Source of the DNA: Odiellus spinosus
Taxonomy: Eukaryota > Arthropoda > Arachnida > Opiliones > Phalangiidae
Direction: 5' to 3'
Assembly (NCBI GenBank): GCA_963920705.1
Contig: OY987227.1
Span: forward strand, 12,875,602-12,939,601
Length of the DNA: 64,000 bases
Shown: piece by piece, positions 36,601 through 61,832 of the stretch
How the letters are laid out: each line of letters begins with the position of its first letter
Numbering within the stretch: position 1 is the stretch's first letter
The notes under the pieces: generated by a model
What the model saw: only the letters and a program-made list of their open reading frames with translations
Databases searched by the model: none
Told to the model about the DNA's origin: nothing
Program-made: the position numbers and the translations under genes

Positions 36601-36654
36601 GAATACAAGAAATATTTTATGCGTTTTTCAATGTCGGTACAGGAACATTTAAAA

Positions 36655-37330
36655 CTATTTTTTTCAATACCATAATATTTTAAATTAATTTTTCAATACT
36701 GTAATATTTTAAATTCTTTTTTCAATACCGTAATATTTTAAATTATTTTTTATCATAATTTATTTAAATTATTTTAAAATTATCATAATCTATTTAAATT
36801 ATTTTCAAACTGATCACAATTTACTTAAATTATTTTTAAATTTATCATAATATATTTAAATTATTTTCAAACTGATCACAATTTACTTAAATTATTTTCA
36901 AATTGATCAATATTAACTTAAATTATTTTTAAATTTATCATAATTTAGTTAAATTATTTTCAAATTGATCATAATTTATTTAAATTATTTTCAAACTGAA
37001 CACAATTTACATAAATTATTTTCAAATTGATCATAACGTATTTAAATTATTTTTAAATTTATCATAATTTGTTTAAATTATTTTCAAATTGATCATAATT
37101 TATTAAAATTATTTTTAAATTTATAATAATTTATTTAAATTATTTTCAAATTGATCACAATTTATTTAAATTATTTTCAAATTGATCACAATTTATTTAA
37201 ATTATTTTAAAATTGATCATAATTTATTTAATTACCCTAATTATTTTTTAATTTACCAACATATTTTTAAATTAACCCTAATATTTTTTATTTACCATAA
37301 TTATTTTTTAATTTATTATAATTAATTTAA
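36655..37330. repeat. AT-rich tandem repeat, unit about 29-30 bp
   Basis: Diverged copies of TTTAAATTATTTTCAAATTG followed by ATCA(T/C)AATTTA, roughly 20 units, almost pure A+T apart from the TGATCA core. It lies downstream of the 3' end of the peptide precursor gene. Confidence 0.8.
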
Positions 37331-37779
37331 AATCATTTTTCAAATCGTAACTTTTCTTTAAATATACTTAATATTTTAAAATCCATTTATAACTCATTGA
37401 AAGAAGTAAAACCTCTTTACTGAGTTGATATTTGATCTATATATTATAACTAATGATTTGATATTTATATATATATATATTTAAGGACACTTGACATATG
37501 ATGGAAAACACATCTTATTAATTTTTTATATAATAATTACGTTAGAATTATTAATAATCATTATTATTTCTTGTTATAACCGTATTTTATTTATTGGTTT
37601 GTAAATATATTTTGCATTAATTTATATTTTATTAATAATTTTATTCCCACTTATACGTAACTCTTTAACTCTAGCATCATGTCGGTGTTTCTTTCTAAAA
37701 TAACTTATGTACTAGAAGAGGGTTCATACAGATCTCATTTTGAACAAAACATTGCGAGTATTTCAAACATTTGAACTAA

Positions 37780-38400
37780 AAATTGCCAGGAAATTAGTTT
37801 TAGACTAAAACTTACAAGGAAATTAGTTTTAGACTAAAAATTGCAGGGAAATTAGTTTTAGACTAAAATTGCAGGGAAATTAGTTTTGGACTAAAAATTG
37901 CCGGGAAATAGATTTAAACTAAAAATTACAGGGAAATTGCTTTTAGACTAAAATTGCAAGAACATTAGATTTAGCCACAAAATGCGGGAAAATTAGACTT
38001 CAGCTAAAAATTGTAGAGAAATTAAACTTTGACTAAAATGCAGATAAATTAGATTTGATCTAAAAATTGCAGATAAATTAGATTTGGTCTAAAAATTGCA
38101 GTAAAATTTTGACTAAAAATTATAGGGAAAATACATTTAGACCACCAATTGCAGCGAATTTAGTTTTAGACTAAAAATTCAAATAATAGCTTTTAGAAAT
38201 TTAAAGAAAATCAGTTTATTGTTCATTGAATTAAAATTGAATTGAATTTTGTTTTAAACTAAACATTTCAGTAAAATTCGTTCATTTTAAACTAAAAATT
38301 GCAGGAAAATTCGTTTATTTTAATCTAAAAGTTGCTGGGAAATTCGTATATTTTAAACTAAAAGTTGCTGGGAAATTCGTTTATTTTAAACAAAATATTG
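37780..38400. repeat. Tandem repeat, unit about 29-34 bp (ACTAAAAATTGCAGGGAAAT)
   Basis: Roughly 18 copies of a unit built on ACTAAAAATTGCAGGGAAAT plus TAGTTTTAG, becoming more diverged and longer to the right. It is distinct in sequence from the neighbouring 36.7-37.3 kb array. Confidence 0.78.
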
Positions 38401-38652
38401 CGGGGAATTTTATTTATTGTGGACTAAACATCTATGGTCGTAAATTAGTTATGCAGGGAATTTTCGCTATGATCTTCAAAATCAGCGTAATTAGTAAGGA
38501 ATAAATTTGGAAATACTTATGGAATTCATTCATTTTACAAGTCTTGTATGAACCCTGCTTAAAATAACGTTTTCCCTCCCAAATATATTATTGGCTTTTA
38601 AATGATTTGATTGATTATCGGTTTAATTTCGTTTTAAATCTTGACTCAATTT

Positions 38653-39984
38653 TTACTTTCCCAAGCCCGTGAGGGACCACGATGGGTCATACAAGGGTTT
38701 ATTGCGAGAAATTAGGCCTAGGTTGTAGCCTCCCGGTGAAGATGGTTTCCTGGCTCGTACGTATCCGCTGTATTCGCTATTGTGGTCTGGCGATTCTGGA
38801 AGGTAGAGGGGTGACCATTCCTCGGAACTAGACGCCGAATTGTCCGCGTACCTTCTGGGTTCGTCGCTTAAGCTGTGTCGAACTTCTTCGAAGAATCGCG
38901 TTAGGTTTTGAAGAGCCAAGGCTCCCAAATATGGGTTGGGATTTTTCAGGGTTACTTCCTCGTTTTCCGGCTCTTCGAAGTCGTCTTCCAAAGCTCCGCG
39001 TTTTCCCAGTCCTATGAACTTCCAGCCTGTTAGGCAAAATTTGAAAGGATGCTTGGAAAAGTCAGGGAAGATACGAAATGTACTTACCAGGGTCGTATCT
39101 GGGTCTGGGCGACCTCTTGACGACAGTAGCTATAAAAGACGGGTGCGGTTGAATTTGTCCCGCGATGATTCTAGCGTCAAAGTTTCGTTCTTGGTCCGTT
39201 ACGTCACTTCCGGGTGATTGTCGCTTTCCCAAACCCATGAACTTCATTCCGGGGTCGAATTTAGAGGGTTTTTTCCTCTTGTAACCGTCAAATTTGTAAT
39301 ACCCCCTTTTCACCATTTCCTCCTCCGTTACGATGTCGCTTCCGGTTCGCTGACGTTTACCCAAACCCATGAATTTCATGCCTGGATCATACTTGGAGGG
39401 CTTTTTTCGTTTCTGGTAATTTTCGTATTGAGAAGTATAGTCGGCCCCGCTTACATCCTCCGCGTCGTTGACGTCACTTCCGTGTTCCTGCCTCTTTCCT
39501 AAACCCATGAATTTCATGGCAGGGTCGAATTTCGATGGCTTCTTTCGTTTCTGATAGTTCTCGTATTGGGAAGGATAGTCGACCGTTTCTATTTGTACAT
39601 CGTCAGTTACGTCACTTCCGGATTCTTGCCTTTTCCCCAAACCCATAAACTTCATGGCCGGGTCGAATTTCGAGGGCTTTTTACGTTTTCCCAAACCCAT
39701 GAAATTGTAGGCAGGGTCAAACCTGGATCTACTGCCGCTCTTTTTCGAATTGAGGTATTTCAGAGGATATTCCGACACTCGATTTATAGCGTCTTCTTCG
39801 GCGTACACGACGTTATTTCCGGTCGATGACTGTCTTTTGCCCAATCCCTGGTACTTCAGTGCGGGATCGTATTTAGGCGCTCGTCGTTTCTCTACCGCTT
39901 CGTTCAATCTAGTCTCTTCCGCTTCATCGTAAGATTCCATTCCGTCTTTCGTTTTCGACGCTTCCTTGCTCTTAGACTCGGATC
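38653..39984 (-). CDS. Multi-copy amidated peptide precursor, exons 2 and 3 (residues 24-446)
   Basis: Exon 2 is 39984-39088, exon 3 is 39026-38653; donor GTAAGT and acceptor CACTTTAG/CTAACAG are good. With the signal-peptide exon at 61832-61763 the precursor has 446 residues. Eight copies of one peptide motif end in Gly-Leu-Gly-Lys-(Arg): at about residues 58-74 (APKYDPALKYQGLGKR), 106-124 (SRSRFDPAYNFMGLGKR), 125-142 and 171-188 (identical KKPSKFDPAMKFMGLGKR), 217-234 (KKPSKYDPGMKFMGLGKR), 261-278 (KKPSKFDPGMKFMGLGKR), 315-332 (SPRPRYDPGWKFIGLGKR) and 432-446 (KPLYDPSWSLTGLGK, then stop). Gly before the dibasic site predicts an amidated leucine. Spacers are acidic and repeat a YxSQYENYQ motif. 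Function is unknown: probably a secreted neuropeptide or hormone acting on a G-protein-coupled receptor. It is not allatostatin A (FGL-amide) nor insect tachykinin (FxGxR-amide). Confidence 0.88.
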
Positions 39985-42567
39985 CTAAAGTGAGAAACAA
40001 AATAATTTATTTTAGCCCCTTAATCAGTTCCTCGTGTCAGGCTAAATATCAAGTGATTTTTTTCAAAGTCTCTTGAGTTTTTGATCTATCATTCAAAATA
40101 AAATGTTGACACAAACATAGGGTAAACTTCCAAATTTCTACCCTTATGAGGTTACACGAAGACCAGACATCGTAATGTTAACGCTCTATAGGGCTAAATA
40201 TTCAAATGACCGCTGTTTCCGATAAAAGGGGTCACATACATATAAATCTCGAAGTAAATAATATCTTAAGCTTACTTTGTAAAACTTTTTCTTTAAATTT
40301 AAATTGGGGGAAAAAACGTGATCATATATGATTTCTAAGAATTCCCAAAAGCTATCTGAATATAATGTTTTTTTTATTTATCAGACGACCAGATTTTACT
40401 TTTTAATCTCTCGAGAGAGACGCTACCTTTTCCCAACATCTTTCGTATACGCGCTTACTTAAAAAAGCTCCAGTTTAAGATATCAAGGTTTCTCTCTACA
40501 TATCTATGAAAACAAATCAATGGCGTGAAGGGCAACCCTTTCCTCTTAAAAGTTGAATTCTCCGACTGTTACTTGTCGTATAATCTTTCCCCAAGTTATA
40601 AGCCATTTATACTCGAGTTCATGACCAGTTTCCTTCAGAGTTAAATGTTAGGCGGATTCATACATAATGTTACGTAATAAGGGAATAACCCTTGCATTTA
40701 GCTAACTTTGGAACTAGTGTATTTCTTGTATCCCATTCAGAGCCCCTCGCGTTAGGTCGTCGAAAGGTAAACTGAGATATACTCTATGGGAAAAATGTGG
40801 AAAAATATATTTATGCCACCAAAAAAAGAAAAATCAACATAATTCCGTATGTTAAGCTCCGATTCGTATAGGGGGACAGGTAAGGGACATAAGCCGAACT
40901 TTCGAGTCTACATCAGTCGTTTGAAATATTGGGCGGTTTTATATATAATGCGATTCCCAAGTCGATTTCAACTTTTGCTCGCTTGCTTGAAGTAAATATA
41001 TGTATATCTTTGAAATATTAGAATTGCTGTTTTATTCGGCTTAGTAGGTACACCAAAAGACCACTCTCACCAACTTAAGGCATGAAGAGTGCTCTTGCAT
41101 AACGTATTTCGATAACCATTCTCTTAACAATGTAAATAAGTACTGAAAATATACTTTAAACTATTTTTTATCGTGAAATTTAAATATTAACGTTTGTCTC
41201 TCAATCTACAATTTATTTTGAGTTAAATCATGAGAAAATGAATTGCAATTTAAATTTAAACTGAAAGGTTATAAAATTGGTTTTAAGTGCTAAAGTTTAT
41301 CAATTTGTTTCATCCATATATTCGTGTTAAATTAACCGTCTGAAATTGAAAAATAGGAAGCATTTTTTTTACTTCATAATATTTTTTAATTTACTTCTTA
41401 TTAAATAATAATTACAAACAAATATCAGTAGTTAGAAATAATTTTTTAAATAATTTTAAAAGTTTTAAGCTTCGCTATAATTATGGCTCTTTACTAAAAA
41501 TTGATTTCCGGTTAATTATTTGCGTGCCAATTATAATTATAATGTTGGAAAACTTCATTCACTCTTGACCTACATCCGTTTAATTGGACCATAATCACTC
41601 GTTATTGCCATATATAGTTGAGGATATAAATATTAAAGTGTTTAAAATCCATAGTGACGGTCGCTCCGCGCGATAAATTTCAAAATCCAATCAAGTGCTT
41701 CGAAATGTAGCCTAAAAACGTATAGGAAGGGCGTCACGAGCTCGAAATCCCGCCCACGACGGGTTCCTTGATTTAGGACAACAGATTCTATGGATTTATA
41801 TAGTGTAATTATCAATTTAGTACTATACTTTTTAACCAAAATAAAATAAGGGTCCGCTTCTTCTCAGAGCAAAGTGACTATATGACCTTTTCATTTCTTA
41901 TATATATACTATCAATTAGTAATTCAAGGCGTCGTTGTCATCGGAAGGAAATGATATATAGGAAATTAAGTAAAAAACTAGCGAAGTAATTGGCTTTTAG
42001 GACGATGACGGCGACTAACCGCCCCGTCCCCCCCTAAATGAAGTGGCCTTTTCGATAAGTCCAATCTTCTCAAATGTCTAATTTCCGGGGATCGGGGAAG
42101 AGGTATTTGTGTGGGCAACAGGGGATAAACCATATTCTAACTGCTCCTCTTCGATAATTATCGCCGAACGATTTTCAATGATTGATGTTATTCTATGTAT
42201 AGCTCCTGGAATTTCATCTCGCGGACGACGCGTGCGTGCAGTTTGATAAAGATCAAGTCTTAGTCCAGAATAAAATACCGTGCCCTCTATACTCTTGTTC
42301 AAAGGGAGTTGATAAACACTTTTTTTCCCCTTAGAGTTTTAACATTGTGTATCAATCCGCCTCAGCATTTCTCATTACGCCAACTCTTGCTCTTAAATAG
42401 GTTGACTTTTGCTTAGGAACTTAGAGATCTGCTAGAAGTTCATAAATGTTGAATTATTTTCTAAGATTAATTAATTTAATTAAGTATTTATTAAGGAGAA
42501 TTTGAAATATAACCTTCAAACATTACAAAGTTTCATCACTAGATTGAGACCACGAAGAAGAGGGTCT

Positions 42568-42665
42568 TAGACACGTTTTTGGTGTTTAAATTAATTTCTA
42601 ACGTTTGGTAAAATTTCTATAAAAGTAGATACATTTGGGCCAATCGTATTATTTCAGTCTCCAAA
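42568..42665. mobile_element. Relic of the TTAA hairpin element found at 60541
   Basis: ACACGTTTTTGGTGTTTAAA, then TTAATTTCT, GTTTGGTAAA and TATTATTTCAG, matches one arm of the element at 60541-60950 in the same order and spacing. The second arm is missing. Confidence 0.6.
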
Positions 42666-45600
42666 AATTATTTTAATTATTTTCCACCTTGGCACCGTGT
42701 GAATTTTTGGACCAAAGACTTAAATTTTATTCAGTTTTGCCTCCAACGCTTAGCTTTATAACTAATTCCTGACCTCTGACCATTTTGAAAGGTTTTAACC
42801 ATCCCCTCTAATATACTAAATCGGTTATTATACTCAAGAGACTGACCCTTTCAGATCAGTTTCGTAAGTAAAATCAAAACATATCTACAAATTTTGGTAC
42901 GGATCTTAAACATTTATCGGGGCGAGAGATGTGTAGTAATATTTGGGAAATATTGAATTATGTATTAAGACATTAGTTAGAAGGTCCATTTAAATTGATA
43001 GGGGTGAAAGGAGTCCCCAATCGAATAAATGCGAGAACTCTCACTGGATTTGGATTTTGACGTTCTAAATTAAAGGCGCGTCTCTTATCTCAGTCGGAAA
43101 TTTCAAATTTATCGACGAGTTCTCTCGTAAAGAAATGTGGAAGTTATACGTTTTGTAGATGATGGAATCTCGGAATTAAATGAACAGAACAATTAATATC
43201 AGTTCGAATTTCCAGCGCGTAGAAGCTTAGGCGGAAAGATACGCGTGTATTATCTTACAATAGAATTAAAAAAGCCCCAGAAAATCTACCGTAATTTGGA
43301 CTATTACATGGAAACGCAAAGGTTCGAAAAGTTAAGAGGTTAAGCTTAATATTTTAATTAATCTGAATATATTAAGTTCGGTAGTTCATACCTTTTATCT
43401 TTGATACGTATCTTAACTATAATTTAATTGCAGCCTTGAAAGGGACTTTGATTTCCATTTAAAAGGATTTTTTCTAAAGAAAAATAAGCTTCTTTTTAAG
43501 ATTCTAAAATTTCAACACACTTTAAATTCTAAATCCGAATTGCAAACTTTGATTTTTATTTATTCATGGATATACGATGTATTTTAAATATTAATATACA
43601 GTCACGTGATTATATACTTCTTTGCTCGTAATATTGGCGTCGCAATTAGCCGACCGACTTAGTTTTTAAATTAAGAATGGAAGGAAATTTGAATGGGTTT
43701 TAATTAAAATTGAAATATTTACGAATAACTATGGAATAACGTCATTCACTTTTATTAATTAATTAAAGAAAGGAGGGAATGCCTCGGGCCTGACTGGAAG
43801 TTTTAAAAGCTAATTAAGACCCTCTTTAAAATTAGCCTTTATTTCAGAAACCCATTTAGGACACTATAGTTAAGTGCATGAGGAAATAGGCCTATCATCT
43901 ATTACTTCAATTGTAAGAGGGGAATCAAGGGGGTAAAACACTCACTTCCATCTCTCTTCTTCGCGCCTGCGTTGTGGCTTTAGGGTATGTTGAATTATCC
44001 CCTTTTGAATGTTGCCTACCCCCTTTTTTATTACCGAATTGGCTTATTGAACAAAACCAACCAATACTAGGGTTTTGAAGTTCTATCTAATCAACTGATT
44101 CATTCAACAATAATTAATTATTATTTAGTACTATGTTGCAAAAAAAAAATATTTTGAAATCTAAGAAATTTTAGTGACATAGTCCTAGGTTGTCACAAAT
44201 AAAATAAAAACCAGAAAAACTAATAATTATAGCAATTTCAAACGGAAAGTTTGGCTGCAATCGAAAGATGGTGTTTATCCAAAAATAGATTTCCCAAAAG
44301 TCGATAGGATGTTTGAAATTCTATTGACTTTTGCTTGTACAAAGATAAATCCAATGTAAATAGCGTGAAGATTTGATGGGCTATGTTTTATTTTAAAGGG
44401 GTCTGGTTTAAAAGGTTCACTCGACGAAATGGCTTAGGTAAGGTTAGGTTAGTTTTTTAACTAGATTCATTTCCGTCGAATATTTGGGAGTCGATCAAAT
44501 GAACCCAAATCTACGAAATACTTTTGCAGTAATCGTCTTGCGAATGAAATATATACAATTTTTATTCTAAATTATACCACGCAGGAAAATATAATTTCTA
44601 TATCGAAAAACTATTCCATTTTTTGATTGAAAGAACGAATATTGGAATATGGATCTTTGAAAGTTTCAAAGTATATGAAATATTTATTTTTGGTTCGGAT
44701 AACGAGGATCTCTATCTCCCTCTCTCTATCATAAAGATCAAGTTCTGATAGTTTATACTTGAAAAACAACAGTAGTTATTGAAAATCAAAGAGATTTCCC
44801 GCAAAATTGCAGAGGAAAGCATTTTCTATTTTTTTTGGATGAGAGCTGAAAAAAGTATCTTTGTATACATATAATGAACCTCTTTTTGGTTGGAAATTTT
44901 TCGAGGATGCGTATTCGTATGCCCATTTTTTCCTTCTATTGTAACTCAAAAAGGAACCTAAATTAGCATAGAAAAATGAAAATCAAAATATCTTCAAAGA
45001 TGGTCAGTTTTATTATCAGCGAAAATTGAGCTATCATCTATTCCACGCGTAAAATACGTATATTTTTTGTTCTCCCTAAATATCTCAAAGATATATATTA
45101 CCCTAAATGAACCTTACATCATTTTAAAATTCGTTTTATATCACCAGGTTGTTTCTGAAAACTTGAAAGTTTAAATTAATTTGGGAATATTTTATAAAGG
45201 GCCTATTTTTAACACGGTTTTAACATTAGCTTTTCATTGCTAAAGCTCTTATGGCCGGACCATTTATTTTTCCTTTTTAAAGGCTTTTGCTGACGTAGCA
45301 TACATATACGCCGTTATAAAAACCCTTCTGTGTTTTTCTAAGTTTGCCGTGAAGTTTCAAAATAAGACCTTTTGAAACATTCCACTCGGATTTATCGTCT
45401 TCTTTTCTTCAAGTTTTAAAAATTATTGCGCGAGGGAAGGAATGAAATAAAAACCTAGAAATTAATTTTCGTTTAAACCAAAGTAGAGTTAATTGTTATT
45501 TTAATATTTAGAAAATTAGAAATATTTTTTTCGAGGGACAAAATTTTGTTAATTGACGAATTGAGAAACTCAACTAAAAATACTAGCTTCACGTACGCGT

Positions 45601-47650
45601 ACAGGATCTAATCACGATTTTTCAAGTTTCGGTTTCATTACTCATACTCGTTTTAATTTGGTTGATGATAAAAAAAATCTTGGTTCCATTCTAAATTCTA
45701 ATTAACAATAAATTTCAAAGAAAGAGATATCCAATTTTAAAATCTAACCCTACATATTGCCTCCCACTCTTTTTCCAATTCGTATTTTAGTGATTTGGCC
45801 GGAGAAAAACTAAAATATCAAATTCTTCCAAATATCATATTGCCGTAAAAGATTTCTAATTTTTTTTCTTTTCTTTCTACTTTCGATTAATTACGAAAAG
45901 TCTGTGATTTTTCGAGTTAATATAAAACTTTCTAGTAAGGGGTGGGGAAAAGCCACTTAACGAGTATTTTTCTAACATTTTATTATAAGCTTAACTTAAG
46001 CACAATATAATTAACTTTTTAAAAAAATTAAATGTGAACATGGTTAAAAGTTAAAAAAAAAAAAAAAAAAAAAAAAAACGGTATTATTTTAGGCCTAAAT
46101 TAAACGCTCTATAGAATAGTGTACTTGATATTGATCTAAAATTATTTTTGGTCTTATTACCTTATACTATAATCGTACCCAGATTTCAAAAGTACTTAGA
46201 AAATGTTAAATCTTATATGAAACCAATTAAAGTAGCTTTGGAAACTGCCTCTCATGAGCTGCAACTTAGGCTCATACTCTTATTTGACTTCAGTTGAATT
46301 TAATTCAAATCGAATTTCGTTTTAAAATTATAAAAAAATATCTCATCTTTATTATTTATTATTTTGATCCTGAGTTTATTTACTCGGGATTAAAGTACTA
46401 AATAATGAATATGGGATTCGTAAGAGCCCATCCTTTAAAAATTGATTGGCCCGGTTTTCAATTCACTGAAAACCATGGACTAACAATTGTAAGGTTTTAA
46501 CCTAATGGTTGTCAGCCCTACGATCGACTAAACAAATCACAAAAAAACAAATTACCACTCAAAAATTGGCCCCTCGCACAGGAACAAAATATGAGACTGA
46601 CATCCTGGAAATAAACCTGAAGTAACTTAAATGTATCCTCATGTCTCTATAGCTACTTAAACACTAGTGTATCCCAATCAATTTGAATCGATAAAATCAA
46701 ACCGATATTTAAATCGCTCGGAATCGTTTTAAAGGCCCTATCTGCTCTGAAATTTGCACCTTTAAACCCATTTTCCCTTATGCACACACTGTACAGTTGT
46801 CAACGTTGTCTGCTAAGCAAGAAGTCGACTTTAAAAGGGACTCTAAAAATTGCAGATATTCCCTTTAATCGCTATCTATTCACATATGATCGTCATCAAC
46901 CTATTTATTATAGTTTCATCTGTAGGTTGTTGAAGCCTAATCGGTGTGAAACTGGTTCCCAAAGCAGTTTCTAGAAATCGATTGAAATTGATTAAAATAA
47001 AAAACGGTTTCCCGTACACACGACTATTGCGAAACGTTTTGAAATAGTTTGAATCGATTTCGAGGCCTAGTATGAACGCGGATTATGAGTCACTGTTAAA
47101 ACGTAGTGAATCTCGACTCTAAGAACTAGAATGAAAGGCGCAGCTTATTGCTATAGTTTCCGTTTTCACCCAAGGTGAGGAGGGCGATGCTACCCAAAAA
47201 GTTTAAAAATAGGTTTTCTCTGTATCTGACCACGATTTTTCCCACATCTTCGAAATATCACGAATTTCGGTTTTAGCGAGTATACTCGATATATACTCTT
47301 GATAGTACTTTGATTCGACTCGTGTTCGATCAAGCGATCGAGGAGTGAAAGGGGGTGTGTGAAACTGGCGTTAATTATAATTGTGACTCTTCGTAAAATT
47401 CTAATCGAACGTGTCGAGGTTGGATCACGTATTATATAATCGCCGTATTAAGTAGGGGGCACGAGCTCGTTATAGGGCACAAACTTTATCTAATCTACAT
47501 TAAAAGTCAATTTTAGATTTCAGAACGCGCGAAGCTAGGCTCTGCTCAATATATATCTCTTATACTAAATCGTCAATTATACGAGATAGAAATTAAGGGT
47601 AGTGGGTGCCCGAAATACGTGCTCAAAGTGTCGTCTGTATTCTACCTTAA

Positions 47651-48038
47651 AGGGAGAATGCAACCTAACAACAAGTGTTTTTATCTATTCCTTGTTGTTT
47701 AAATAGGCCTAATCCACCAGTGAAAAGATTTACGAACAAATAATTAATTAGAAAAAAATTTAAAACTTACCCGGATAATAGCCTTAGCTGGATTTCCTCG
47801 CGTACAAGGTTTAGCGACCAATCGAACGCGATTGTAAGTCTAGTGGAGATCTCGCGTGAACGACGGCACTTTGCTCATTGTTCGCTAGACCTTACACCAA
47901 GGCGATTCGAGATCCAGATTTTCAGGGTAAGTTTTAAATTTATTTCTAGTTTAATATTTGTTTTGTAAACTTTTTATTGGTGGATTAGGCCTATTAAATC
48001 GATATAAAAATCACTTGTTATTAGGTTGCATTCTCCCT
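47651..48038. mobile_element. Hairpin MITE with TTAA target duplication, copy 1 (388 bp)
   Basis: TTAA (47647-47650 and 48039-48042) flanks 27-bp inverted repeats with one mismatch, beginning AGGGAGAATGCAACCTAA. The pairing continues inwards (AATTTAAAACTTACC against GGTAAGTTTTAAATTT and TAGCGACCAATCG against a related block), so the whole unit can fold into one long hairpin. TTAA duplication is typical of piggyBac-mobilised elements. No transposase frame. Confidence 0.82.
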
Positions 48039-48754
48039 TTAACAAATAACTCGTTGAAAAGTTCGATCTATCTACGAAACACAAGACGAGCAAATCAGAC
48101 AGCTGTTCAAATCAGAAGGTTTAATATGGCGCGAAATTCAGCTAGTGATGATGTCGTCGGTTTTTTTCCCGAATGGGTATTAATTATATACATACATATT
48201 TTTCATATTATTAAAGTGGAATTGAAAGTTAGAAAATGATACTTAAATTGCATTTGGTGTTCTTGAGATATCGGTAATAGCGTCACTTTAAAATTATGTA
48301 TAAAACCGCCTCAACCTTTCACATTCTACCGACTACTTTTGAACAAAAGTTCCAACGATAATGGTATACATTTTAAAATTGTGAAATAGCTTTTTTATGT
48401 AAATTTGAAAACAAGTTCTTCAATCGATCCTGTCGTTAAAAAATGTGATGAAGTTGGCAAAATTAAAACGTCCAAAGTATTTAAGCTGTCTTAAACGCCA
48501 ATCGACACCCTTTAGAAGCTGTAAATTGAGGTTGAGGATATAGTCTGTAATTGGGTCTTGGAGTTATAAGATATGGGAGACGCGGTCTGCTTTGCTATAA
48601 GCCGTACTTCCACGCGCAATTTGGTATGAGGGAGCAACTATAGGCTCTGCTTGATAGTTTAAAAATGTTTGACCATACAACATCGGACTCAGTAATTCTT
48701 AAACAAGTCGGCCTCTTTTGTATTGATTTTTTTTCTAAGTCTTAACTGAAAAGT

Positions 48755-49312
48755 TCATAACACTTGAATTTCAGTTCCAAATACTTGAATTTCAGTTCCA
48801 AATACTTGAATTTCAGTTTACAAATACTTGAATTTCAGTTTACAAATACTTGAATTTCAGTTTACAAATACTTGAATTTCAGTTTACAAATACTTGAATT
48901 TCAGTTTACAAATACTTGAATTTCAGTTTACAAATACTTGAATTTCAGTTTCCAAATACTTGAATTTCAGTTTACAAATACCTGAATTTCAGTTTACAAA
49001 TACTTGAATTTCAGTTTACAAATACTTGAATTTCAGTTTACAAATACTTGAATTTCAGTTTACAAATACTTGAATTTCAGTTCCAAATACTTGAATTTCA
49101 GTTCCAAATACTTGAATTTAAGTTCCAAATACTTGAATTTCAGTTCCAAATACTTAAATTTCAGTTCCAAATACTTGAATTTCAGTTCCAATATTTGAAT
49201 TCCAGTTCCAAATATTTTAATTCCAGTTCCAAATACTTGAATTTCAGTTCCAATATTTGAATTCCAGTTCCAAATATTTTAATTCCAGTTCCAAATACTC
49301 GAATTTCAGTTC
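48755..49312. repeat. Minisatellite, unit 20-21 bp (AATACTTGAATTTCAGTTTAC)
   Basis: Roughly 27 tandem copies. The left part is built of the 21-bp unit ending GTTTAC, the right part of the 20-bp unit ending GTTCC, with substitutions accumulating at the right end. The open frames here (for example 49048-49260) are read through the repeat and are not genes. Confidence 0.92.
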
Positions 49313-49394
49313 CAAAGGGATACTATTAGGCCTATTAGTATCTACTCCCTGTCAGTAGAAACTCCATCGTTTATGTGAAAATCCGGTCCTTATA

Positions 49395-50724
49395 TCATAC
49401 TAGCTGAAAGCCCGCCCTACGGGCGGGTTTCATCCAGTTGCTTCGGGCCTAATGAAATTGTATTAAAATCTGAGTTTCCACGCGCCTGCCATATGAAAAG
49501 AGGTGAAAAGGATTGAACAGTGTTATAATTTTATTGAAATTATAATAACTATTGAAATTATAATAACTATTGAAATTATCCCCATAGATGGCGTAAAAGT
49601 AATGAAATGAGCGAACGCGTAACCGCGTGGTTTATATATTAATGATTACTACTCCACATCTAAATCCTCCGTGGAAGTGGTGTTTATATTTGTAACGATA
49701 CCAAATCGAAGATTTAATTTTTCACTTAATTCTAATTTTTATTTTCATCTTTTTAAGGGCGGTCCTCTTCCTTTCCACCTTTTTTTCGGCGGCCATCTTG
49801 CTTTTCATGCGGCCATCTTACTTTTCATCTTTTTTCATGCGGCCATCTTACTTTTCATCTTTTTTCATGCGGCCATCTTACTTTTCATCTTTTTTCATGC
49901 GGCCATCTTACTTTTCATCTTTTTTCATGCGGCCATCTTACTTTTCATCTTTTTTAAGGCGGCCATCTTGCTTTTCATCTTTTTTCATGCTTCCATCTTA
50001 ATTTTCATTTTTTTTTCAGGCGGCCATCTTGCTTTTCATCTTTTTTCAGGCGTCCATCTAACTCTCATCTTTTTGCAGGCGGCCATCTTGATGTTCATCT
50101 TTTTCCGTTAGTTTAAAACGTTCCGTTTAAAATTTATTACCACTCCATTTTTAAATGCTCCCTGTAATGCTAAGCGGGGTTTTAATATATAAGACTACTA
50201 CTCCGCGTCTAACAATCCTCCGTGGGGAAAAAAAAAAAAGACCCTACACTATACAAATCATTATCAACCAATGGGAGGCCGGCGTTAAGGCGAGGCATCC
50301 CGCAACGGGATCCTCCTGAAACGACAGATTATCGTGTTAACGAACGGAAGCCTTTATCGAACTGGAATTTTTAACTTTAATTTTAATTTAAAAAGAGTAA
50401 AAAGCGGTACGAACCCCGATTAAATTTTATAATTTAAACTGAGCGGAGGCCTAACAGGAAGAAAATTAACGAAACACTGAAACGTTTGTAACGATACCAA
50501 ATCGAAGATTTAATTTTTCAATTAATTCTAATTTTAATTTAAAACGAACTACGAACCCAGATTAAATTTTGTTCCGTAGACGGCGTGTTTCTCCAAGAGC
50601 AATAAAATTAGCGAACTCGTGGGGGGCCGGAACGGCTCGGAATAAATTCCCCCGCGAAAAAACCAACCAACGAACGACGAACGAACGAACGAACGAACGT
50701 CGTGGTTTTTATATATAAGATATT
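49395..50724. mobile_element. Possible Helentron-type (rolling-circle) non-autonomous element
   Basis: Starts near CATACTAGCTGAAAGCCCG, followed by a strong short hairpin (CCCGCCCTACGGGCGGG), and ends near GTCGTGGTTTTTATATATAAG. It carries an internal minisatellite, repeated blocks (a segment starting AACGATACCAAATCGAAGAT occurs twice, near 49695 and 50491; CTCCGTGG occurs at about 49668 and 50218) and a GAAC microsatellite (about 50680-50698). A 5' hairpin plus an internal tandem array resembles Helitron/Helentron derivatives. The boundaries and class are inference. Confidence 0.4.
49798..50105. repeat. Minisatellite, unit 30 bp (ATGCGGCCATCTTACTTTTC)
   Basis: About ten copies of a 30-bp unit containing GCGGCCATCTTACTTTTCAT and a T run; the first six are nearly identical and the last four diverged. 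Because 30 is a multiple of three, it makes artefactual repetitive open frames on the + strand. Confidence 0.92.
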
Positions 50725-51716
50725 CTTCTTTCTTGCAATAAGGTGTGGTTGATTGAACTTTTGAGAGATAAGTCGCCACAGTCAATTATCTTAACACATT
50801 TAAATATTTTCAATATAGTTATATTCTCGAAGGATAGATCCCTGCAGGGTTTATATTTTGCAAAATATTACTGTTATAATATTAAAACATATTGTTATCC
50901 GTCGGTCATCGTTGTATTTATTTTTCATTTAAATTGTGGTCGAGCGAAATATTTGGAAAGTTTTTTTGTTTTTACATAATTCTTAGGTCTCTCGTCGCTT
51001 GAACTCTCGGGGGAAGATAGTCTTTAGTAGTCTTAACTTTTCAACCCGACAGTGTTTACGTTATTGCCATTGGCAGGGCTCATCGGTGTTATTACAAAAC
51101 TTTCAGGGATGGAAAATTATTCTATCAATTCATCCCCCTTCTCAATTTTCTAATTCTCTTAAGATAACCCCCCTTTCGCGACCAATTTATGCACGATCCT
51201 TCTCACAGAATTCGTTAATAAACTTGACTAATTATCTAAATTCTTAATAAGATTGGATATTATGGAAAGATATCAACGGCCTGGGGCTTATTAGATCTAA
51301 CCTATAGTACAAATGTTATAATACAATCTAAATTCTAGTTCAAGAGGATTTTTTTGATTATTTTCTCTATAAACATTATCAGAAATCTATAAAATTGAAC
51401 CCTTCTGCGTGGCGGAAGCTCTTAACTCAACGAAACATCATTTTTTCGTCGTGCCAAGCTGAAAAGTAACATTGAAATTTTATTAACTGCAAAATATAGT
51501 CGCGCTAGTAAAAATATCAATCCGTATAACTCCTTGTAATTATAAAAGGGGAGGAGCTTAGCGAGAAAATGTTGCTACCTACGTCATAGATCGTGATGGC
51601 ATAGCGCGTAGAATTCCACTTATTTCGTTACAAACGCTCAAATCCACACTTAATGATACGTGTGTAATGATTTGAAACTAGTGATTTCGGGACAAGTAAA
51701 GCCACAATTCAACAAG

Positions 51717-51905
51717 ATGCCTCATTTTCATGGTCGCTTGTAAGCTAAATTTTTACACGCTACACGCGAATATCTAAACGAAACAGATATTTCACGCGCA
51801 CGCTATAGCTTCGAGCTCTGCTAAATTACGAGCGAAAAAAATACGCTGGCAGTTTCTCCACGCTAGTTTTAGCGTACACGTGACCATGAAAACGGGGCTT
51901 AAGAT
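51717..51905. mobile_element. Degenerate inverted-repeat element
   Basis: TGCCTCATTTTCATGGTCGC on the left and the inverse of GACCATGAAAACGGGGCTTA on the right pair imperfectly, with further partial complementarity inwards (ACGCTA / TAGCGT blocks). It is probably an old MITE. Confidence 0.4.
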
Positions 51906-52409
51906 GACAAATTATTCTCTAAAACCAAGTATTTATTTTAGCGCGCGTCTGCGTAGATATCAGCCGTTTTTTTTTTTTTCATATTAAGACTAATCATACG
52001 CTGCTAGTTCGCGTGAACTTTAATGCATTCTTTAGTCAACGACATTAACATTACGAGCATTGGGAGTTAGAAACTTCTCGACTAATATTTTTTTGTTCAT
52101 TTTTGGCTCAACTTTTCTCATTAGATCAAATTATCTAGAAAAGAAGTATAACTCCTTCATATGTATGAAAACCCAAAAACTTTATATAATGGAACTTTGT
52201 GGATATAACGGAATGTCTCTCGAGAAATTGAATTCATAATTAGCTCCAAAATTGGCCCATAACTAAAAGACAAACAGTTCGTTTATGTAGAATTAGAGTA
52301 TATCTGGCCGAAATTGTAATGGAAAAACCTCACTTTCGTTTTGACGGCGAAGTGGCAAAGCGCGTTTTGACGTAATTAAAACGAAATATGATATATCCAG
52401 TAGTAGTAA

Positions 52410-52613
52410 TTGCTAAAAACGTATTATTTCTCCTATATTTTAATATGATTTTAGTGTTATTTCTCCTATATTTTAATATGATTTTAGTGTTATTTCTCCT
52501 ATATTTTAATATGATTTTAGTGTTATTTCTCCTATATTTTAATATGATTTTAGTGTTATTTCTCCTATATTTTAATATGATTTTAGTGTTATTTCTCCTA
52601 TATTTTACCATTT
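52410..52613. repeat. Minisatellite, unit 33 bp (TATTTCTCCTATATTTTAAT)
   Basis: Six nearly perfect tandem copies of a 33-bp unit (TATTTCTCCTATATTTTAAT plus ATGATTTTAGTGT). The frames on both strands (52330-52647 minus, 52388-52651 plus) are products of the 33-bp periodicity. The low divergence suggests a young or homogenised array. Confidence 0.93.
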
Positions 52614-54834
52614 CTACTATTTTTTCCTGTATTATTAGAGATTTCAACTAGATTTCCGTGTTATTTCTCCTTTACTTTCTCCGATTTTCCAATAAAATAT
52701 TCAAGACATTTCCCTGGTCACCTTAATTGCATCAATAAATATTCCTTGCCTGTAAAAGTCTGAAGAACGGTTTATCGGAAAGCGCTTTTCGAAACTTGAG
52801 CTGTCAACATCGAATAATAAACTCAGAGAAGGAAAGAGGTGGCGATATTATTGTTGATGTAAAAACCTCTTAATTTCCAACCCATTATTAAGACGAGGTG
52901 TCAATCAGTTGATTTTTAATAGCCTCCCCTTACTGAATTTTTCCACGTAGTTCGAGGTGGGAGGTTGCCATCAACTATGGTCGTCTGCTTAAAGCATAAT
53001 TCCGCTTTGAAATCATAGTTAAAAATTAAAGGGGTTCGAAAAAGACATATTCTGTCTCTTTCCCTAATCACACCCTTTTTCGCGACTGACACGCCATTTT
53101 TATTATTATTATTCCCTTCAATTAATTATGACTAACTTACAAATATATTAAAATATTTTAACTTTATTTAATTTCAAAAACAACCAAAACAAAAATTATA
53201 ATATCTTATAATCAGCTTTCTAATTTAGTCAGAAACGAAGCGGATAATATTTCGGGGGAAAACAAAAAATAATTAGAAACGGTGAAGATTTTAATTATTT
53301 TCTAATATATATTCAAAATGACCTCGAGGTCGAAAAGAGTTTTTTATTTTTAATTAATTAATCAAAATTCGTCGTCACTGAAATAATTTTGCTTCAGCTT
53401 AAGCACCAATCTTAAATAAAGATCCACGAAAATCTCCTAAAGTTCTAAAGAGTACTTGACTAAAATTAATATAGATTTTTTTGTTGTTTTTTTTGTGTTC
53501 ATCCTATGAAAAGTTAGTCGAAGTAGGAAGCGAGGGAGGCTTTGGTAACTCGTGACACTACGCATTCTTCTCCGTATTAGGGGCGTTCAAGAAGAAATTA
53601 ATAAAATGAATAATCAAACAGAGGGTGACTTTCCCGCAGGCCTGAGTGCCTACCACCCCCGCCCAGTTAGTGGTTTTTAACTAGCCATATTATAATCTCT
53701 AGCATATCCCAGCTGAGAGCTTTTCCCTTAAATTCTTTCTCTGATATATCCCACAAGAAACATATTGTTTAAAATTCTTTGGTTGGAGAGTTTTTATATG
53801 CCATTTTAAGATTTTTAACATTGTGTCCAGTAGAAGGGAAGGTTTGACTCGAGAATCACAATTAGCAGACGGTTCAATGGTTATTTTCCGGGGAAATGCG
53901 TAATAGGTTAATTTGAGTGAAAAAATTCTGATACCACCGTTTTAGTTCTTACAACAGCCTTTTCAAATCAATTCTTTAAGTAATTAGTTCTTTGAAAGTT
54001 TTTTTCGCAACGTTTCTATTATAGGCTTATCACTGGATAAACGCGCCAATTTACCTTTGCGGGATTTAAAGTTTGTTAACCTATGCCTATTTTAAAATCG
54101 ACCATAACGTTCAGGTCATTTGAACTTTAACGCCCTCGCGGTGTAAGCAGAAGTTCGCAACAAGGTATCAGGTTATTATTAAAACAGTCAGGCCGCGAAG
54201 CCCTTGTATGAAATTGGCTTTCATTCAAAATTTACGGATCGTTTATGACCAAGAGCCCCGAAAAACCGCTGTGGCTACAATATTGAATGAAATTAAGTTT
54301 ATTTTAAAGGGATGATAACAATTTGCGAATCAAATTAATTCGCGCGATCTAGCGTAGTAGTTGGTTTAAATTTTAGAATGAGCTTTACTAGAACATCACG
54401 CGATGTGATTGGATACGGCATCCGATTGGCCGTAATGGCCTGATCAGGAATAATGGAATTAGGCTCAAATTCCTCTAAAAAACTCTTTTCATTCTTCTTA
54501 TTGAAAAGAGACATATTTAAACACGAGTACAGTTAGGCCTAGCATAATTTTAAATTAAAGAAAAACTTCTCGCTGATTGGTTAAAAGTTTACATTAAATT
54601 GATTTGATGATTTTATTTAAAAATAATTCTAGTTTTTAATAATAATGTAGAAGGTATCTCCACGTATACGTACGCGTTCCAAGCACGATTACTAAACATT
54701 TCTACTTGTGAAGCCTATTTTTAAATTACAAATAAAATTATTATTCCCTTACAACCTCCCTTTATGGGGAAAAAATACTAATAAAGGCAGGGAGAAAGAA
54801 ATATGTCTAATAATATCAATGTACCTCTCGTAAT

Positions 54835-54876
<42 letters not shown>

Positions 54877-57258
54877 CATTCTATTGCTTCTAAGTCGTTA
54901 AACAAACTATATAAATATACCTCTTTATTTAATACATAGAGCCTTAAAATCCATTTGTGCTTTTCCCCTAGCGCAAAAATTGTAATAAAAAATGTTAAAG
55001 TGATGAGGTCAGCAGATTTTCATGAAAACCAAGTGGAATTTTAGTTCAATTTTGGAATGATCGCTAAAAATAATACAAAATGTGAATGACATATAAAAAA
55101 TTGCAACACCCATAGAAACATTATAATCGTCATTTTAGATCTTCTACGTCATCATTATGGTGACGTGGCTTTCATAGAGCAAACATTTGATTCTAAAGTT
55201 TGCTTTCGCGCCGTCTTTCTCTTGAAAATACTTAACCTAGATAGACTAATCTTTAATTTTAAATTTAAATTGTTAAACTAAAGCTGTAAAATTTGGAGTT
55301 AATGTTTTTAATAGTATGAAAAATTTAAAAAGTATAATTCGTAGGGCTTCGAAAACCAAATGGTGATAGCATCACTTTCTAGAAAAAATAGCAAAATTGC
55401 TCCTATAACTGCTTGCGGGACTCTTTTATGTAAGAAATATAATTTTGGTTCTTTTCCCGAATATAATAATGACCAAAAACGAACTTTAACCCTTTCATAT
55501 ACGCAAAGAAAAAAACTGGGTGCCAAATATTTATATAGAAAAAATCTTTTGAGAAAAAAAAGTTTAAACCTTTCTCGGAGTGAATATATATATATATGAC
55601 AGAACTTGGAGTTTATCGGTGCAAGGACTTATGGAAAGATTACGTTCAGTGCCGATACTCTGTAAAGTATTTTTTTGATATAGAAAAGAGATATCTAAGA
55701 AAAAGTTTCACTCTCTTTTAGGGTAAATGCTCAGTTATTATCCCAGATTTGAGATTATATCGTCCCGTTTTGATGATAGTCTTTATCATTATATTATTAA
55801 TAGTTTTTCCGACAGAACGGTGTAAGAACCCAGTAGTTATTACATTTCCAGCTCGTTTCTTCTCGGATTCTCTCTTTTCCGTACTTACATAATTGTAGGG
55901 TGTATACCTAGTTCTTATCGAACTTCTCCGAGGGCGTGATGAACACCACTTATTCCGCTTCTGTTGGAATGCGAAAAATTTTCTCACGGTGTTTTATCTC
56001 AAGAGCAGTTTACGAAAAAACCAAATCCGTGGCGGAAGGATAAAACGATATTAAACCTAGTAGGCCGAGTTTAAGACTTTAAAAGCGTTACTTGGATTGT
56101 ATGAAGTTACATTCACACACGGCCCCTTTTTTAAACCGCATTTCAATCTAATAATCTTTCGGGACAATCAGGGAAATTTAAGTTATTTGGAAATTCAGGG
56201 AAATATTGGAGGTATGAGTAAATATTTGCGCTAATGATTAGTAACAAGAGTATATGAAAATCCTTCCTAAGATTATAGATCTCGGTAAATCGCCGCAATT
56301 TAATCAGGTAAAGGAAAATGAAAATTCTCCCACCCAGCCCCATTCGCTGCGTTGATCTGTCTCTGATTTCGTATTAACCAATAGAATTACATATCGATAC
56401 TCTTAGGGAGTGTTTTAATATACTCTTGGTAGTAAAAAAATCGTAGCTCATCTATCTATTTAAAACCTAGAAGGAAAAAAAATGGTGTAACTTTTGAATA
56501 TATCAGGGAAAACTCATTGTAAAATCGTGCAAATAACAGAACAATTGCTTTTCTAAATGCTGTATGAACCCTGTCAAACATTTTTACAGCTCACCAAAAT
56601 ATTTAACAATTTAACCCCTTCAATTTATAGTTCGAACGCCGCTTAATTAAAATCCATTTTTCGATAACGGTTGTTTTTCTTACTCATTTCAAAATTCTAA
56701 AAATCATTAAAACATTTTTAAATGAATAAATAAAACGACAGAAACATTCATTACGCTTTAAAATATGCTTAAAACTTTGTTATTAAAGCTCATTAAAACG
56801 TTTTTCGTTAATTTACAAATAATTAACAAAATTGCGTCATTTTCAGACGGTTTTAAAAAATGGATAAAAATTATAGAAAATGTACAGTTAACCAAAGAGT
56901 GCGTTAAAATATTTCGCGCGCACCAACTGAACCCTAGAGGTCGCGCGAGTTTTAAGACGTTCTTGGATTAGCTGCAGATTTTCTGTAATTTTTATTAGAA
57001 AACTTTAGTCTTAGCTGGCTTAAATCGTAAATTATCCATGAATTAATGAGAAACCTTTGTTTCAGATGGATTTGTGCAATTTTTATCATTGCTAATCTAT
57101 TTAAACAATATTTTTCTCATCTTCATTATCCCTTTATGGTTTTCACTTGATACAAGTTTAAATTTTAGGTCCATTTAACTTTTTAACGCTTCTCCCAACT
57201 TGACATTATTATTTATCCCCTGGTTGGACTCTGCTCTCTGAGCACCATTGTACGTTGG

Positions 57259-57390
57259 TTAAAACACTTTTACAGGCGTTACTATAGAAAAAGCATTATT
57301 TAAAAATCTCCTGGAAGGTATTTTTCTCCTGAACTTTGAAGCACGAACGGTAGAACACTTTTACAGGCGCCAATATAGAAAATGCTTTAC
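57259..57390. repeat. Two-copy direct repeat, spacing 96 bp
   Basis: AACACTTTTACAGGCG followed by a TATAGAAAA.GC.TTA block occurs at about 57261 and again at about 57357. Only two copies; origin unknown. Confidence 0.5.
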
Positions 57391-60300
57391 TCTAAATTTA
57401 TTGAGCGAGGAGAGAAAAAGGCAATCACTTATTGTGCCCTGTTAGCAAAAAAGGTTTTAAACATGGCTTTTCTTAGTAGTTAATAAACGTTCTGACTGGA
57501 TTTTGCCACCCCTGCCAGTATGCAGTTTCAAAAATAGTAATAATAATAAAAAATAAAGTATCACAATGACAGAAAAGCAATAAATTATAAGAATAAAGAC
57601 AATATAATATAATTACACCCAAAATTAAATTGTGAATTAGGCACAAACCCCCCATAAAAAAATAAAGCCAACCGCGAACCTTATACAAGCGAGTCTTTAA
57701 AGGTCGAAACCAACGAGCCCGCTTTAACTTCGCTAGAAAGGGAGTTACATGAATTCACGTCTACTCGTTGGTTGACACCGTCCTTTAAAAAGGGTGGGTG
57801 CTCCGCGGCCTGTCCGCCTAAAATACATTACTATATTATTTTCTTGTCTAAATATCTTTTTAAATAAAACATTTTTGTCCGTATTCGTACAGGGTTAAAG
57901 TAACTCTTGGGTTCAAGGTCGTGGTGAGGGACGAGCTAACCCCGAAAAATCAAGTCTGGGTAAGTAGACTAAGCATATATACTTTAAAAATTCGCGAAAA
58001 AACTTCTTGGTTATTATATAAACAATTTTGAAAGCAAGAGATTTTTTTTTTTGTAACAGAAGCAAGAACAAAAATCAGATGAGAAAAGTCCAAATTCATA
58101 AAGTAAATTAGAATATAATTCCCAAATCATCTATTTGATCATTCTCGTAAAATTGTTAGGGATGAATACTAAATACTAGTCGCGTATTAAACATCTTCGT
58201 ACGTGTGTGGTTCCTCGTTTTATTCCTACATGTTTAGACTTTGAAGATGGTTAAATTTACATAAAATCGGAATCCAAGCCCAAAATTGTAGATAAAGCGA
58301 AGCCAAACTTAGGTTGGGACGGGCCTACCCGCTTCTAACCTGACGACGGGCCAGCGTGACGCGCCAAATGACAAGGTTTCCCAAACTCTCCCTCCACATT
58401 ATCTTTACATATCCTAGCCTCGTTAAAACGCTCGCTATTAATTACCAATTTGTTAGACGTACACTTGTAAGTTTGCTCTCATAATTACAGTCAATTCATT
58501 AAAGTTCCCCTTAGTAATATGTGACGCTTTCTTGTTACTCCGGCGATCATAGACGCGCGTTTAAGTACGCGTGAACTCGAGGTTTAAAGCGAGGTTTAAA
58601 GTCAGTTAATGGTATAAACATACGGCTTTATACGAGAAAGAGGGGGGGATTAGTTGGAAACCGTGGGAAACAACTTACATATACATCTTGATTTGTCAGC
58701 GCACGCGGAGCTACCTACCACCCTGTTAGTTATTAGAGAAATCGAAACTTACACCCGCCCGTTTCGGACTAATATATACATATTAAAACCAATTTAAACG
58801 CAACAATTGAGAAATTATTAAAATAGATGTGAAAATACTACACATAAATTAAGATCGAAACAGCCAAATTAGGCACGTCTAAAGAGGGTGTAATAGTGCT
58901 GAAAAAGTTGCAATAATTTGTTAATTAAATAGAGTGGAAAATATCACTTCGCCAATACCCAGTTACGTCTTTGAAAAGGACCTAAATTCTCGCATAAAAC
59001 TCGGTTTTAAAATGAGAATTTATATCCCTTTCAAACTTGTAATTGAGATATAGATTCGTACTCGTTATTTCTGTAACTCGCTTGCGTGTTTAAAGGGATA
59101 GTGTTAATGAATTTGGTTACAATTTGATTTCTCTAAAAATTAAAAAGTATTTTCTGTACTGTGCCATCTGTTAAGTAATTTGGGGTCTTACTATTTTATA
59201 AAATAATTCTCCAACTTTTCCTTAGTATAATTTAGGTGTTTTTTTAAATAATATTTATCACCAAATAATTTTTCCAATTTTCTATTAACTATGTTTTTAT
59301 GGAACTGTTATGAATATTTATTTCGGACGTCATACTCGTCAAATATTTACTTTGATTGTTTGTAAGTAATAAACTCCATTCTATGTTCTTGTAGGAAGAT
59401 ATTCTTTGAACTATTTTCGCGTGTATATCCTCTCTTTTGTAAAGAGACCGATTTTTTTCCACCTGTTGCCACTCTCTCTCCGTGTGTGACTCGATATCGT
59501 TCAAAATTTCGATTTCCAGTTCCACAACAGACGCGAAAAAAGTTCAAAACTAAGAGAGAGAAATATTCGCGTAATGACGTCTTTACTATCGCAGTATTTA
59601 TTTCTATCTTTCGCAATATATCCTTTAAACCATTGAACAGAGAATATCCTCTTCTAACAAAGCTCGAAAAACCGAAATAGGTCTCGTATATGGAACCAAT
59701 CTAGAAATCTAACGATGTATACGAAGTCCCTAATCATACAAATGATCTCGTTTTACAATCATTTGCTCAAATTGACCGCTGCGCTTTTTCCCAGTCTACT
59801 TAAAGCCTCTTTCACACAAGTGACTGTCATTTTTTAGCCGTTTTGGAAAGGTCAACTGTAAATATATTCTATCAAAATATTGATATATTAACTTGGAAGT
59901 TGATTTAAACATTTAAAACTGGTACTTTGAAAGATTTGTGAACGTAACTTAATTGTGTATCTGAGTCATGAAATATTATTTTACAGTGGTTTTACGAGAA
60001 TGTTCTTTAAAAACAGGGCTTTCAACAGGTCCATAAAATATCTAAATGTCCCTATTTTATTTCCAGATCCTATTTAACTCCCCAAAAAACCTAAATTCGT
60101 CGCTAAAGTATACATATTTTTAATAATTACAGGGAATGTCTGGATAGTCTGAATTTTTCCACTTTGTGTGGGTCCTTACAAATATATGTAGGAATGAATC
60201 ATTTCACAAACTTAATTCTTAGGATTTTGACGCGCTTCTGTTTTGAAAGATTGCGCCACGAACTCTTGTAAATGATAAGTGATGATAACGATTTCATTTT

Positions 60301-60540
60301 GTTTTTCATTGGTCCCAATCTTAGAATTTTGGTGCCTATTTTGTCCTATTTTTATGGTAAATCAGTGTACAGATCTCACGGAAGTGATTAACGCCTCGAT
60401 TTTTATTCACCATGGTCAATCAATTTTGTGTAAAGGATATTCGACAGAAGTTTCTAATTCTAACCATAGGCGCCGAATGAGCTGTGACCCAACCTGATAT
60501 TTGTCAGGTGCAAAAGTTGGAAAAATTATAAGACGTTTAA

Positions 60541-60950
60541 GGGAAACTTGGAGCTAAAAATTGAACAGCTTTTGAATTTATTTTCGTATTCGAGAATTGT
60601 TTCGGAATTTTTTCACACGTTTTTGGTGTTTAAATTAATTTCTGAAGTTTGGTAAATGAGAAAAATGAAATATAAATTCGGGTCAATCCTATTATTTCAG
60701 CCTTCAAGAGCGCTTGTCCTAACATTAAAGAAATAGGCCGACGTTTGACGCCTAAGATCTTGGTAGTCAAACGCCGGCCTTGTGATGGCTGAAATAATAT
60801 GATAGGGCTAGAATTTAAATTAATTTTTTTTTTAATTTTACCAAAACTTCAGAAATTAATTTAAACACCAAAAACGTCTCTAAAAATTTTCGAATACATT
60901 TTTTTTACATGTTGATTCCGAAAATAAATTCAAAAGCTCCAAGTTTCCCT
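60541..60950. mobile_element. Long hairpin MITE with TTAA flanks (410 bp)
   Basis: TTAA at 60537-60540 and 60951-60954 flank arms beginning (A)GGGAAACTTGGAGC. Pairing continues through AAGCTTTTGAATTTATTTTCG-like, TTTTTGGTGTTTAAATTAAT and AATCCTATTATTTCAGCC blocks. At the centre lies GCCGACGTTTGAC / GTCAAACGCCGGC. The TTAA and AGGG termini place it with the elements at 11139, 47651 and 62681. Confidence 0.75.
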
Positions 60951-61762
60951 TTAAAAACGTGAAAGTTTCGTCGTTGACTAAAGAATTCACTCGTGGACTA
61001 GCAGCATTTACTATAGAGGTCTTAGAAATGCACCCACTTAGAAATTGAAAATATCTTACATTTATGTACTGGTAATAATCTATATCTGACCTATATCTCT
61101 TCGCTCGATAAGGGTTAAGAACATCTTAAAAGTGTCATTTCTATGACACCTAACAACATGTTTAGTTTTCATTAGCTAAAACAACTATTGTTTATAGTTT
61201 CATTATTGATTAAAATTAACACCATTCACCTAACCTTTCTTCGAAAGTTCACATCACTATTCGAAAACCCATCATCTTTTAGGGATATTGCGCATTCTCG
61301 ACTCATTTTACAGTTACAAAGTTTCTAGTGTGAACGAGGATAAATATTAATGGTATTGAGTCACGACTTAGTGACATTTACTTCCCGCAAATGCTTGATA
61401 TTTAAATTCAAGACTCTAATAAATGATTGGTGTTTCGTATTCTGCAAAGGTTAAATTACATGTGTGTAGCTTAATAGGTTCTTGCTTGGACTTATAAACA
61501 CGTTTATTAGTAATTTTCTATGAAAATAGTTAGACCTATTAGTTGTCAATAATTTTAAGGATATTATGAATATACATTTAATATCAGCTGTTGTTTCATT
61601 TTACTTTTAATAAGAGAAGTTGTCTTTCAAAATCTCGTACAGGAAATTAACAAATACGAATATTTCTCCCAATATTAACTTCAAAATTTGATATAATTCC
61701 TCTTTTTATTTTAGAAGTGACTTATATTCTAACTTAGAATGGAAAATGAAATTTAGACTTAC

Positions 61763-61832
61763 CGTTTTCGCTTGCCAAAACGAAGCCTAAAAGAGCTAAC
61801 CATAACAAAAACGAACTTAGCCTAATTTCCAT
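61763..61832 (-). CDS. Signal-peptide exon (exon 1) of the peptide precursor
   Basis: ATG at 61832-61830 opens a 23-codon frame: MEIRLSS, then a leucine-rich hydrophobic core (FLLWLALLGFVLA), then SEN, a typical secretory signal peptide with likely cleavage after LA-S or nearby. It ends in phase 1 at a strong donor (G|GTAAGT). The peptide exon at 39984 begins in the matching phase after a good acceptor and has no start codon or signal of its own, so the two are joined here. It is the first ATG downstream of the candidate transcription start. The 21.8-kb separation makes the join an inference. Confidence 0.72.

Follow-up and report, generated by a model that had tools for sequence, protein, structure and literature searches.

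To which neuropeptide family, if any, does a gene belong that encodes eight similar, apparently amidated peptides ending in Gly-Leu? The gene lies on the minus strand of a window of 64,000 nucleotides (C3:12875602-12939601 of a 443-Mb assembly with 286 contigs), and it is called the FxGL-amide gene here. It was found that the pattern [FY]DP-x5-GL-GK occurs eight times on this strand between window positions 39871 and 38656, with Arg as the next residue in seven copies and a stop codon in the last. Several copies, basic sites and an amidation Gly are thus all present (seven GKR and one GK-stop), as is generally the case in multi-copy amidated precursors. Such precursors are a well-known kind of gene, but the family itself fits none of those with which it was compared.

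The precursor of 446 residues plus stop was obtained by splicing 61832-61763, 39984-39088 and 39026-38653 on the minus strand into three exons. This model reproduces the precursor length given by the sequence-only reading, and the eight copies that it had counted, the last ending in Gly-Lys-stop, were recovered on the spliced product. Both introns of the spliced model have a GTAAGT donor and an AG acceptor, with matching phases. The putative exon 1 (61763..61832) holds the start codon and a candidate signal peptide, MEIRLSSFLLWLALLGFVLAS(EN), and would end in phase 1 at its GTAAGT donor; judged by its splice signals (GTAAGT...CTTTAG), intron 1 would cover 21.8 kb (39985..61762). Exon 2 (39088..39984) encodes the propeptide together with copies 1-6 and the start of copy 7. 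Intron 2 (39027..39087; 61 bp, GTAAGT...AACAG, phase 1) lies inside copy 7, and for this reason only seven copies are visible in the unspliced window. The remainder of copy 7, a spacer of 102 residues and copy 8 up to Gly-Lys-stop are encoded by exon 3 (38653..39026), with TAA as the stop codon (38655-38653). Downstream of the gene, window positions 36647-38418 are filled with dense tandem arrays of several units, mainly 29-33 bp, and another dense array (22-bp unit, 26 times) was seen at 48762-49316. The window also contains two Ninjurin exons on the plus strand (11283-11654 and 30739-31014; Pfam E 9e-19 and 1.5e-14) and two exons of the amiloride-sensitive sodium channel type (ASC/pickpocket-like), one at 25702-26109 (plus strand), just below the Pfam cut-off, and one at 33422-33931 (minus strand).

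For exon 1 the upstream minus strand within the window was scanned at five thresholds for a start codon, a hydrophobic stretch and a phase-1 donor. At the strictest threshold the candidate was the sole one in the window, with none in each of 20 Markov sequences and none on the opposite strand. At the second-strictest threshold the Markov sequences averaged 0.15 candidates, with 2 at most, and at the three loosest their mean count exceeded the observed count. The putative N-terminal signal peptide lies on a hydrophobic candidate exon in the correct phase, 21.8 kb upstream, which is not significant at the looser thresholds. As the strict threshold was chosen after the candidate had been seen, we infer, and do not take as established, that this hydrophobic start is joined to exon 2 across the 21.8 kb.

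All copies lie on the minus strand. Copy 1 reads YDPALKYQGL-GKR (39833..39871) and copy 2 FDPAYNFMGL-GKR (39683..39721), followed by FDPAMKFMGL-GKR as both copy 3 (39629..39667) and copy 4 (39491..39529); these two are the pair that had been described as identical, and they do share the same protein sequence. Copies 5 and 6 are YDPGMKFMGL-GKR (39353..39391) and FDPGMKFMGL-GKR (39221..39259), copy 7, split by intron 2, is YDPGWKFIGL-GKR (38998..39097), and copy 8 is YDPSWSLTGL-GK-stop (38656..38691). The FxGL string is present in six of the eight, with copies 1 (YQGL) and 8 (LTGL) departing from it. In an alignment of the seven different predicted peptides D, P, G and L were the invariant positions. 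Amidated masses were computed for the predicted peptides, with [M+H]+ values such as 1467.75 (PSKFDPAMKFMGL-amide), 1155.57 and 1462.81. The spacers had been called acidic, which holds for three of the seven between copies (D/E:K/R of 7:5, 7:5 and 18:10, cleavage sites counted) and fails for the other four (4:6, 0:3, 5:9 and 4:6).

The motif never appeared in 20000 shuffled versions of the protein. Among the ten pairs formed by copies 2-6 (copies 1, 7 and 8 were left out), pN was 0-0.20 versus a pS of 0.46-1.11, ratios that are rough with 12 codons per copy. Copies 3 and 4 differ in 6 of 12 codons, and all of these differences are silent. Because pN is lower than pS and copies 3 and 4 differ silently, purifying selection on the peptide is indicated and not a young tandem repeat; copies 2-6 look selected at the peptide level.

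Like allatostatin A (AST-A), the FxGL-amide gene encodes a multi-copy precursor with Gly-Lys-Arg sites and peptides ending in GL-amide. The rule for AST-A is a Phe at position -3. In contrast, the FxGL-amide precursor has Met, Gln, Ile or Thr at -3 in all eight copies and an aromatic residue at -4 in seven of them, and the C-terminal (Y/F)xFGL-amide of AST-A was found in none of the eight. The host has a separate AST-A gene at C14:2184869-2185770 on the minus strand, with 22 FGLG(K/R) copies, 19 of them RFAFGL, most at a period of 45 nt. This gene served as a positive control for the motif-scan method: scanning the 443-Mb genome for FGLGKR gave 65 matches (control 89), 19 of which fell in the single 0.9-kb array on C14. 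The Pfam family of allatostatins (PF05953) matched a 187-residue piece of the host AST-A with an E value of 4.7e-12, whereas the FxGL-amide precursor gave no match to it up to E 10. On the C-terminus, the Pfam result and the separate gene we rejected AST-A itself as the identity of the FxGL-amide gene. It might still be a divergent AST-A paralogue whose products are ligands for the AST-A receptor, as the GL-amide end and the GLGKR processing sites are common to both and a local alignment with a piece of the AST-A precursor reached E 1.3e-4 without composition correction. Such a paralogue, however, would have had the third-from-end Phe replaced in every copy, would have escaped the Pfam model that scores its relative in the same genome, and would stand beside an AST-A gene that is present with its 22 copies, and we consider it very improbable. 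A remote origin from AST-A is possible in view of the GL-amide end and the local match.

The sequence-only reading had also pointed to a partial resemblance to vertebrate tachykinins. The FxGL string of six copies is indeed shared with the FxGLM-amide peptides (vertebrate-type tachykinins, sialokinins and eledoisin), but the Met after Leu is missing and the amidation Gly stands in its place. An FxGLM-amide end was found in none of the eight copies, as the amidation Gly comes immediately after Leu in each, and the resemblance did not hold.

Invertebrate tachykinins end in FxGxR-amide and have an F-x-G core, which is present in most copies of the FxGL-amide precursor, and they too come from multi-copy amidated precursors. 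The FxGL peptides differ from them in the upstream F/Y-D-P motif and in the terminal Arg, which precedes the amidation Gly in none of the eight copies. The same lack of Arg separates them from natalisins (FxxxR-amide), with which they share the organization in multi-copy amidated peptides. The tachykinin consensus is xPxxGFMGMR, and a DP motif is not known as a hallmark of tachykinins.

An Arg-amide precursor was found elsewhere in the genome, at C4:4507300-4510016 on the minus strand. It encodes nine peptides, five with FMPMR and one each with FLPSR, FMAMR, FFGMR and FFASR, and is of a mixed tachykinin/natalisin type (FxGxR plus FxPxR). Its model is incomplete, since a signal exon was looked for and not found, and a 120-residue piece of the precursor gave no match in Pfam. 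The mix resembles that of spider mite and tardigrades, for which PMC6880623 describes precursors with both tachykinins and natalisins. Scanning the genome for FxGxRGKR gave 44 matches (control 47), one of them within the C4 precursor, with 35 of the 44 places examined, and GFxGxRGKR gave six scattered matches (control 0). The natalisin motif FWxxR gave 38 matches (control 30) with no cluster, and no precursor was found among the four places examined. For FxPxR there were 143 matches (control 152); those listed clustered at the C4 gene (five matches) and in a series of identical repeats on C1.

Additionally, the genome was queried with the Drosophila receptor TkR99D, which gave 115 matches. The two best-assigned receptors are both on C7: R1 (12.85-12.96 Mb) is 62% identical to TkR99D and 54% to Drosophila TkR86C, and R2 (19.77-19.82 Mb) is 48% identical to TkR99D and 53% to TkR86C. 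With pairwise identity to these references as the measure, they are best assigned as candidate receptors of the tachykinin and the natalisin type, R2 being the host receptor that is closer to TkR86C than to TkR99D. Besides the FxGL-amide gene, the genome thus contains a candidate receptor of each type and at least one gene for Arg-amide ligands.

These findings bear on the possibility that the FxGL-amide gene is a duplicated tachykinin/natalisin gene that lost its terminal Arg (FMGLR-amide to FMGL-amide) and still acts on a tachykinin or natalisin receptor of the host. The sequence xPAMKFMGL is like the tachykinin consensus up to its last residue, and two receptors stand against the one Arg-amide ligand gene found among the scan matches examined. 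In addition, ARPFAAML-amide is reported among the products of spider mite tachykinin precursors (PMC6880623). Against this, the defining Arg-amide is missing in all eight copies, their DP motif is not known from tachykinins, and the FxGxR (tachykinin-like) and FxPxR (natalisin-like) peptides of the C4 gene could serve both receptors. The best alignment of the two precursors had an uncorrected E value of 0.07, which is no meaningful similarity. Taken together, descent by loss of Arg seems unlikely to us. The stronger version, in which the FxGL-amide gene would be the genome's only tachykinin with its Arg lost, is weakened by the Arg-amide precursor at C4. By its predicted C-terminus the family is distinct from AST-A, tachykinin and natalisin; the earlier statement that it is neither AST-A nor tachykinin is thereby upheld, and both of these gene types lie elsewhere in the genome.

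Searches beyond these families placed the precursor nowhere. HanSolin ends in GQPLRW-amide in most taxa, according to PMC7179676, and was rejected as an identity since this C-terminus is unlike FxGL-amide. In Pfam nothing in the FxGL-amide precursor was above the cut-off; below it were matches to DUF7015 (E 0.0015 and 0.012) and TRH (E 0.0045 and 0.051), which probably reflect a bias that repeats and basic sites introduce. No relative was found in the PDB at E ≤ 1. With exon 2 or a part of it as the query, the GTDB genomes gave 15 pattern matches, none of which was confirmed, and the IMG/VR viral collection gave no relative. In the host genome a 106-residue piece had three matches, all within the FxGL-amide gene. 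An FxGLGKR scan of the same genome, a method that needs intact codons within one exon, gave 67 matches (control 103), six of them in the FxGL-amide gene and seven in a 24-bp tandem array; the rest were single places or dispersed repeats, and neither another cluster nor a paralogue was detected. The array, at C7:10173210-10173373 on the minus strand, is a perfect, minisatellite-like tandem repeat that spells FxGLGKR seven times.

The sequence-only reading had assumed an insect host, which the genome did not support: the odorant-receptor family gave a single match, better classed as gustatory type, and cox1 lies directly beside cox2. A winged insect is expected to have Orco and many odorant receptors. 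The one genome match to PF02949, the odorant-receptor family, was above the cut-off (E 6.3e-8). This match lies in an intron-free frame of 403 residues at C15:11731779-11732501 on the plus strand, which scored better as the gustatory type (7tm_7, E 2.5e-13) than as PF02949 (E 6.6e-10). Insects and crustaceans normally have trnL2 between cox1 and cox2; on the mitochondrial contig (C286) cox1 is followed directly by cox2 and then by trnK-trnD, with no trnL between the two cox genes. On C17, between 1.1 and 4.4 Mb, sequences resembling cox1 occur in several places; they contain TGA codons and a few TAG stops and are probably nuclear copies of mitochondrial DNA. A scan for AKH, with a pattern that missed some Thr codons, gave one unconvincing match (control 4). 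The chemoreceptor and mitochondrial observations point to a chelicerate or a myriapod, which the host probably is. Against such a host speaks that the best PDB match of its USP/RXR ligand-binding domain was the USP chain 1z5x, from the whitefly Bemisia; we give this little weight, as no RXR of a chelicerate or myriapod is known to us from the PDB.

Based on these results we consider it likely that the locus encodes a genuine family of amidated multi-copy neuropeptides, probably lineage-restricted, that would act on a G-protein-coupled receptor. Our picture of the processing, the neuronal expression and the receptor of the FxGL-amide peptides is read from the gene's sequence. The precursor would be secreted and its signal peptide removed, after which prohormone convertases would cut at the KR, RR, KK and KRKK sites. 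After a carboxypeptidase had trimmed away the basic residues, the Gly left at the end would be converted into a C-terminal amide. The expected products are seven different peptides, each about 10 to 16 residues long, for example (PSK)FDPAMKFMGL-amide. They would most likely act through their amidated end on a class A G-protein-coupled receptor, with the invariant D, P, G and L as the likely residues that this receptor reads.

Most arthropod neuropeptide families are widely shared, and sampling of chelicerates and myriapods has been poorer. The family would probably be confined to one lineage among the non-insect arthropods; the searches for relatives covered prokaryote and viral collections and the host's own genome. 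A more far-reaching reading, to which we give somewhat less than even odds, is a family without a described relative, which arose within a chelicerate or myriapod lineage and supplies (F/Y)DPxxKFxGL-amide ligands to an orphan receptor of its own, beside the AST-A, tachykinin and natalisin systems. That the locus encodes a genuine neuropeptide family is compatible with this family having already been published as a chelicerate or myriapod neuropeptide, which would remove its novelty alone. Survey sequences of these groups, to one of which the host probably belongs, are often found in subscription papers and supplements. However, a search of the open-access literature (5.39 million papers) for the peptide motif gave nothing relevant, with subscription papers, supplements and eukaryote protein databases outside its scope, and earlier publication appears to us rather unlikely. 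The motifs of the host's other two peptide genes likewise gave no paper. Because neuropeptide sequences are often deposited in supplements and databases beyond this search, 'undescribed' is to be read as a probability and not as a result.

The FxGL-amide gene may represent a peptide signal that has not yet been described. As a single-copy gene with selected copies and an amidated peptide that fits no compared family, it would add a ligand for which a list of exact masses is ready, and it would bear on the origin of new peptide signals. Orphan receptors are the natural place to search for the partner of the FxGL-amides. If the ligand instead pairs with the tachykinin or natalisin receptor, this would mean a departure from the customary Arg-amide terminus.
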